64,000 bases of DNA from Capsulimonadaceae bacterium (GTDB lineage: Bacteria; Armatimonadota; Armatimonadia; Armatimonadales; Capsulimonadaceae). Position numbers and translations under genes: made by a program. Below are positions 52,259 through 52,576 of this stretch, piece by piece (the first letter of the stretch is position 1; each line of letters starts with the position of its first letter). Below the pieces are notes generated by a model. That model did not search any database. It had not been told where the DNA came from and saw only the letters and a program-made list of their open reading frames with translations. The stretch lies in the NCBI GenBank assembly GCA_031292625.1, contig JARLGU010000019.1:248001-312000 (forward strand), given 5' to 3'.

Positions 52259-52315
52259 ATGTCCCTATTCTATCACACGCCCCATCGATTTTCGGTATCG
52301 AGCGAACCTAACGAC

Positions 52316-52538
52316 AGGGCGATCGCATCTATACCTGTTAACAGCGGCGCGAGTCCGGTCCTGAAAAGGCCGGCCTCTGTTGAGAAAGCCCGTGAACGGG
52401 CCTAATCGGTAGACGCCCAGCATTTTCGTGAGCAGGCAACCCCATTGATGGGGCTTGAAATCTCAGGACGGTCGTTTACGGCCGGAAACCGCGCCAATAT
52501 CGGTGACAATCGTTGATATTAGTGGATGCGATGCCCCT
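52316..52538. mobile_element. 223-bp MITE-like element with 12-bp target duplication
   Basis: The segment begins AGGGCGATCGCATCTA and ends with the near-complement of that sequence (AGGGGCATCGCATCCA on the other strand), 13 of 16 positions matching. It is flanked by a perfect 12-bp direct repeat GAACCTAACGAC (52304-52315 and 52539-52550). Terminal inverted repeats plus a target duplication define a small non-autonomous transposable element; a 12-bp duplication would suit IS4-like transposases. The interior is rich in hairpins and has no complete gene. It sits in the gap upstream of the PTP gene. Confidence 0.72.
52337..52492 (+). ncRNA. Hairpin-rich interior of the element, possible structured RNA
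   Basis: Successive stems: AACAG/CTGTT enclosing CCGGTCCT-gaaa-AGGCCGG; GCCCG-tgaa-CGGGC; CCCCA-ttga-TGGGG; GGTCG-ttta-CGGCC. The first part also reads as a short frame ending ...SPVLKRPASVEKARERA-stop, reminiscent of the end of a TnpB-type gene running into its omega-RNA. This resemblance is from memory and unverified. Confidence 0.3.
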
Positions 52539-52576
52539 GAACCTAACGACGCAACGTGATTCTTCACCGCGCAAAT

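Follow-up and report, generated by a model that had tools for sequence, protein, structure and literature searches.

A short segment lying between two genes of the window (the whole 64,000-nucleotide stretch of a Capsulimonadaceae bacterium genome that was analysed) has inverted ends and a direct repeat on either side, which raises the questions of what kind of element it is, what moves it and why it is found at this place. The sequence GAACCTAACGAC occurs exactly at positions 52304–52315 and 52539–52550, with the inverted ends between the two occurrences, and the first-pass annotation had read this as a 12-bp duplication around a 223-bp segment. The exact repeat and the inverted ends are real, but both lengths had to be revised. 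Clean copies of the same element have exactly 10 bp outside CAGGG...CCCTG; the element in the window is therefore 225 bp long (52315–52539, + strand, CAGGGCGATCGCATC...GATGCGATGCCCCTG), and the family consensus has the same length and identical ends. The target-site duplication (TSD) is AACCTAACGA, with a left copy at 52305–52314 and a right copy at 52540–52549, the two further bases being chance matches to the element's own terminal C and G. A 12-bp TSD was accordingly dropped. The left terminal inverted repeat (TIR; 52315–52331, + strand, CAGGGCGATCGCATCTA) is the exact consensus, matched by the search pattern with 0 mismatches, and the right one (52523–52539, − strand; TGGATGCGATGCCCCTG on the + strand) is imperfect, the family consensus being TAGATGCGATCGCCCTG.

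A family of miniature elements in the source genome

The first-pass annotation had called the segment a transposed, non-autonomous element without an internal transposase, and had looked to the rest of the genome for further copies with differing flanking repeats, a lone copy speaking against the idea. BLAST against the element's own genome gave 41 long copies with 86–100% identity, and the number of matching places rises to 54 (about 50 copies) once the pattern-derived loci are added, which together with the TIRs and the TSD bears the description out. The 225-bp consensus can be written CAGGGCGATCGCATCTA...TAGATGCGATCGCCCTG, and the copies diverge from it by 4–17%. Flanking direct repeats with a score of at least 10 are present in 31 of the 51 scorable copies, compared with 1 of 1,063 re-paired flanks; in clean copies the TSD has a constant length of 10 bp, and its sequence differs between sites. 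As judged from sequence, the family is thus one of miniature inverted-repeat transposable elements (MITEs): short, bounded by TIRs, devoid of a transposase and present in many copies. Forty related genomes yielded no more MITE copies except for a 47-bp hairpin match in one of them (G006), and an exact-pattern contig scan with the MITE core gave no matches in other genomes, the source genome itself probably lying outside that scan. An array of short hairpins (L078, G006:C146, about 6.4 kb), of the types CCCC-ATTGAT-GGGG and CGGTC-GTTTAC-GGCCG, resembles the MITE interior and is without MITE ends.

In about ten copies the direct repeats are 15–44 bp long, one TIR end having given way to the sequence that comes after the TSD on the opposite side. 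Such end-replaced copies, among them L015, L016, L021, L025, L029, L031, L037, L039 and L041, are unusual for a cut-and-paste element. Because target sequence takes the place of some ends, the targets were tested for likeness to the TIR, and no enrichment of TIR-like sites was found (on average 3.8 and 3.9 of 15 positions match, against 4.0 and 3.9 in the null). The sequence flanking the TSD is thus unlike the TIR, so that we read the odd junctions as probable products of repair or conversion, made during or after insertion. Tandem or closely spaced copies are also found (G000, at the start of C10 and at C17:3595–3969, C28:52109–52828 and C55:79961–80367), some of them with a shared flank, and they look as if they had been amplified in place.

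Among copies, the interior positions of the MITE are better conserved than those of the TIRs, which inverts the usual pattern and is partly a consequence of the replaced ends. This conservation, and the folding of the + strand, which is better than that of shuffled sequences (z −4.9), would suit a structured regulatory RNA or riboswitch-like element instead of a plain transposon. We regard that reading as very improbable, given that no Rfam match was obtained, that both sides have changed in 2 of 71 predicted pairs, that the covariation term is unfavourable and that the TIRs, the TSD and the copy number are typical of a transposon.

Ends shared with ISAs1 insertion sequences

The annotation had further proposed that the element is moved by a transposase encoded elsewhere, to be recognised by an insertion sequence (IS) with the same ends, and had suggested an IS4-like origin. 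IS with these ends do exist in other genomes of the phylum, and they belong to the ISAs1 family. When 291 genomes of the phylum were searched for the TIR, several proved to contain the variant CAGGGCGAACGCATCTA, and two complete IS bounded by such ends (L112/L121 and L111/L126; about 1.25 and 1.3 kb, TSD of 9–10 bp) encode transposases that score 412 and 387 bits with the NCBIfam ISAs1 model NF033564, the match of this model to an IS transposase with MITE-like ends reaching E=1e-123. At the ends of L099, L110, L111 and L112, 15–16 of 17 bases agree with those of the MITE. L099, from a genome (G001) that belongs to the source organism's own family, is an IS end with one mismatch leading into an ISAs1 N-terminus.

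The ISAs1 IS (NCBIfam NF033564; "ISAs1-like" in plasmid records) have a TIR starting with CAGGG and a 10-bp TSD, both as in the MITE. They differ from it in being about 1.2 kb long and encoding a DDE_Tnp_1_assoc + DDE_Tnp_1 transposase, whereas the MITE has none and its interior is unrelated. With these ends in common, the MITE is most simply an ISAs1-driven element, and we infer from the sequence evidence that it derives from ISAs1 and would be moved in trans by a transposase of that family, in keeping with the proposed mobilisation from elsewhere. IS4-family elements give 10–12 bp duplications, and this would favour a MITE of the IS231/IS4 type; yet the IS with the same TIRs encode proteins that match the ISAs1 model at 412 bits and the IS4_1 model at 25 bits, below its cut-off of 115. 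The IS4 origin was rejected, and we give it next to no credence.

The source genome yielded ISAs1 relics only, a frameshifted one on contig C12 (L095) and a fragment on C26, and no intact ISAs1 transposase. With the assembly at 96% completeness, an intact partner copy could be missing from it or lost. Other DDE_Tnp_1 transposases of this genome (L072–L077) were rejected as partners, having no matching ends.

Predicted promoters in a fixed register

For the flanks, index 0 is the first base outside the element and counting proceeds outward; on this scale the −35 element starts at about 19 and the −10 hexamer at about 42, promoters being predicted from the consensus. In the window, the insertion appears, like most copies, to keep a constant distance from a predicted sigma70-type promoter on the − strand and to lie upstream of it in a constant orientation; this promoter has a −10 hexamer TAGAAT at 52267–52272 (index 42), a spacer of 17 and a weak −35 position CCGAAA at 52290–52295 (index 19). 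The start codon of a gene for a DSP/PTP-type phosphatase (PF22741; 51740–52258, − strand) is found 8 nt past the −10 hexamer. On the other side, the gene upstream of the insertion, for a histidine-kinase-like ATPase domain protein (PF13581; 52577–53566, − strand), ends 27 bp from the element.

Under a strict −10 rule, a −10 hexamer starts 39–44 from the left end in 27 of 45 MITE copies (p about 6e-26), while other left-side intervals contain a mean of 1.8 and a maximum of 5, and the right side contains 0. TTGAC-type −35 boxes lie about 19 bp out from the left end, and TTG at index 18–20 is present on 14 of 45 left sides, where 2.4 are expected (p=6e-8), and on 3 of 45 right sides. The TSD of the MITE covers about −54 to −45 of the predicted promoter. 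About 18 of the 45 copies have no promoter in register by the strict rule. Since each site has flanks of its own and the promoter is outside the duplicated 10 bp, the promoter predates the insertion. The register was absent from the first-pass annotation, since a single window cannot reveal it.

L060, a second, diverged element in the region of G000:C16:28157, measures about 250 bp and shares the ends of the MITE. It has a TSD matching at 9 of 10 positions (TCAAAGGAAT/TCAAGGGAAT) and TTGACG at index 18; it is probably another MITE subfamily obeying the same target rule.

The register at ISAs1 insertions in other genomes

A scan of named genomes yielded 80 ISAs1 loci from many phyla, of which 37 have recognisable ends; nearly all of these 37 have a TSD of 10 bp, the length of that of the MITE. 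A full promoter in register was predicted on at least one side in 15 of 26 scored IS outside G291, about 1 being expected from other registers. G291 (record CATOSZ), an alphaproteobacterium, contains one ISAs1 IS in at least 40 identical copies, with 171 candidate places; the copies being identical, this is a very recent burst. TTG at index 18–20 is found on 18 of 36 left sides in this genome, where 1.4 are expected (p=2.7e-16), and on 1 of 36 right sides. In G292 and G293 taken together, where the TSD is again 10 bp, the register is present on 14 of 26 left sides, against 2.0 expected (p=1e-9), and on 6 of 26 right sides. The three IS samples overlap in part, and all copies in a given genome depend on a single transposase. 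The left end is turned toward the promoter in the MITE and in G291, and the orientation is looser in the other IS. A promoter-like sequence in a fixed register is thus predicted both at the MITE and at ISAs1 IS of several unrelated genomes. At L112 (G023), an ISAs1 IS is located between two divergent predicted promoters, both of them in register.

The family is not uniform in this respect. Plasmid ISAs1 copies of Aeromonas, Photobacterium and Salinivibrio have no register (0 and 2 of 19), though they have 10-bp TSDs, and their ends are mostly of the type CAGGGC(A/G)AGATC. In a tree of the transposases this gammaproteobacterial group without signal is mainly on a branch of its own, and the IS with an in-register promoter are scattered, labels from single insertions being noisy. 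The preference belongs, on this evidence, to a part of the family. As the control copies lack the register despite their 10-bp TSDs, the register is not a by-product of calling ends or TSDs.

A register of this kind might also arise by selection if insertion were roughly random and the survivors were those copies that are harmless or useful just upstream of a promoter. Many sites are indeed in short intergenic gaps, genic insertions would be lost, and the 4–17% divergence of the MITE copies leaves time for selection to act. Such a filter, however, predicts broad distances and both orientations, while in 20 MITE copies the −10 starts at index 42 or 43, exclusively on the left. In 17 of 34 cases the identical and recent copies of G291 also have TTG at precisely index 19, and at least one such site (L227) is inside an open reading frame, although the ORF test of genic versus intergenic insertion is confounded by the many spurious open frames of GC-rich DNA. 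Selection alone does not explain a one-sided register of 1–2 bases that is present in identical recent copies, and we consider it improbable as the origin of the pattern. The register would then reflect target choice and not later selection.

Proposed target rule

We think it rather likely that the MITE is mobilised by an ISAs1-family DDE transposase and that its target is chosen relative to a sigma70-type promoter. The transposase would recognise ends of the form CAGGGC(G/A)(A)(T/A)CGCAT, act in trans and cut the target with a 10-bp stagger. The cut would span about −54 to −45, immediately ahead of the −35, with the left end of the MITE facing the promoter. We take this interval to be the upstream edge of the position occupied by the RNA polymerase holoenzyme, over the UP-element region.

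The target could be recognised by way of the RNA polymerase holoenzyme, or the −35 could be read directly. A bound holoenzyme may guide the complex, which would suit the MITE, where the −10 signal exceeds the −35 signal. In its fullest form, which we put forward as a possibility falling short of probable, a widespread ISAs1 group would integrate where the sigma70 holoenzyme ends on its upstream side, by contact with RNA polymerase or sigma; this would make it the bacterial equivalent of Ty3 at Pol III promoters, with the MITE as a passenger spread over dozens of promoters in one genome. A variant of the same target rule, to which we lean just as tentatively, leaves RNA polymerase uninvolved, the transposase itself reading a TTG(A/C)C motif about 9 bp from the cut. 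It would suit G291, where the information in the sequence logo is confined to index 19–23, TTG(C/A)C, where some sites have a TTG-type −35 with little −10, and where at least one site is in an open frame. The MITE fits it less well, since its −10 (27 of 45) outweighs its −35 TTG (14 of 45), which is not expected for a pure −35 reader. Under either route of the promoter-relative rule the benefit is likely to be that of a safe haven, as genes and core promoters are left intact, so that copies can accumulate.

Relation to known systems

Bacterial MITEs such as MITEAba12 and repeats of the Correia, RUP and ERIC type are, as here, short, non-coding and TIR-bounded, with many intergenic copies moved in trans. 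We know of no such MITE or repeat with a single fixed distance and orientation to a sigma70 promoter. Ty3 and Ty1 at RNA polymerase III promoters and Tn7 at attTn7 use a host landmark to integrate where it is safe; the logic is similar, but the machinery is unrelated and the landmark here would be an ordinary bacterial promoter. IS5 inserts upstream of E. coli operons, above the promoter, and alters expression (PMC2753651, PMC11894529). Those are individual selected events with no genome-wide fixed −35 register, unlike the MITE and ISAs1 insertions described here. For the ISAs1 family the promoter register is not stated in the open-access papers searched, nor was a description of promoter-directed insertion for any other bacterial IS found in them. 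As the search covered open-access papers, novelty is provisional, and a fixed-distance promoter preference of ISAs1-type elements is apparently undescribed.

Target rules that depend on a general host landmark are very rare among bacterial transposons. If insertion is indeed fixed at about −54 of sigma70 promoters, this would account for the accumulation of dozens to more than 100 copies without death of the host. The genes rewired by these elements would also be predictable, upstream activator sites being displaced by 225 bp or 1.2 kb with the core promoter kept. The insertions might then serve for sequence-based promoter finding in uncultured bacteria, and the ISAs1 transposase would offer a natural promoter-directed integrase for study.
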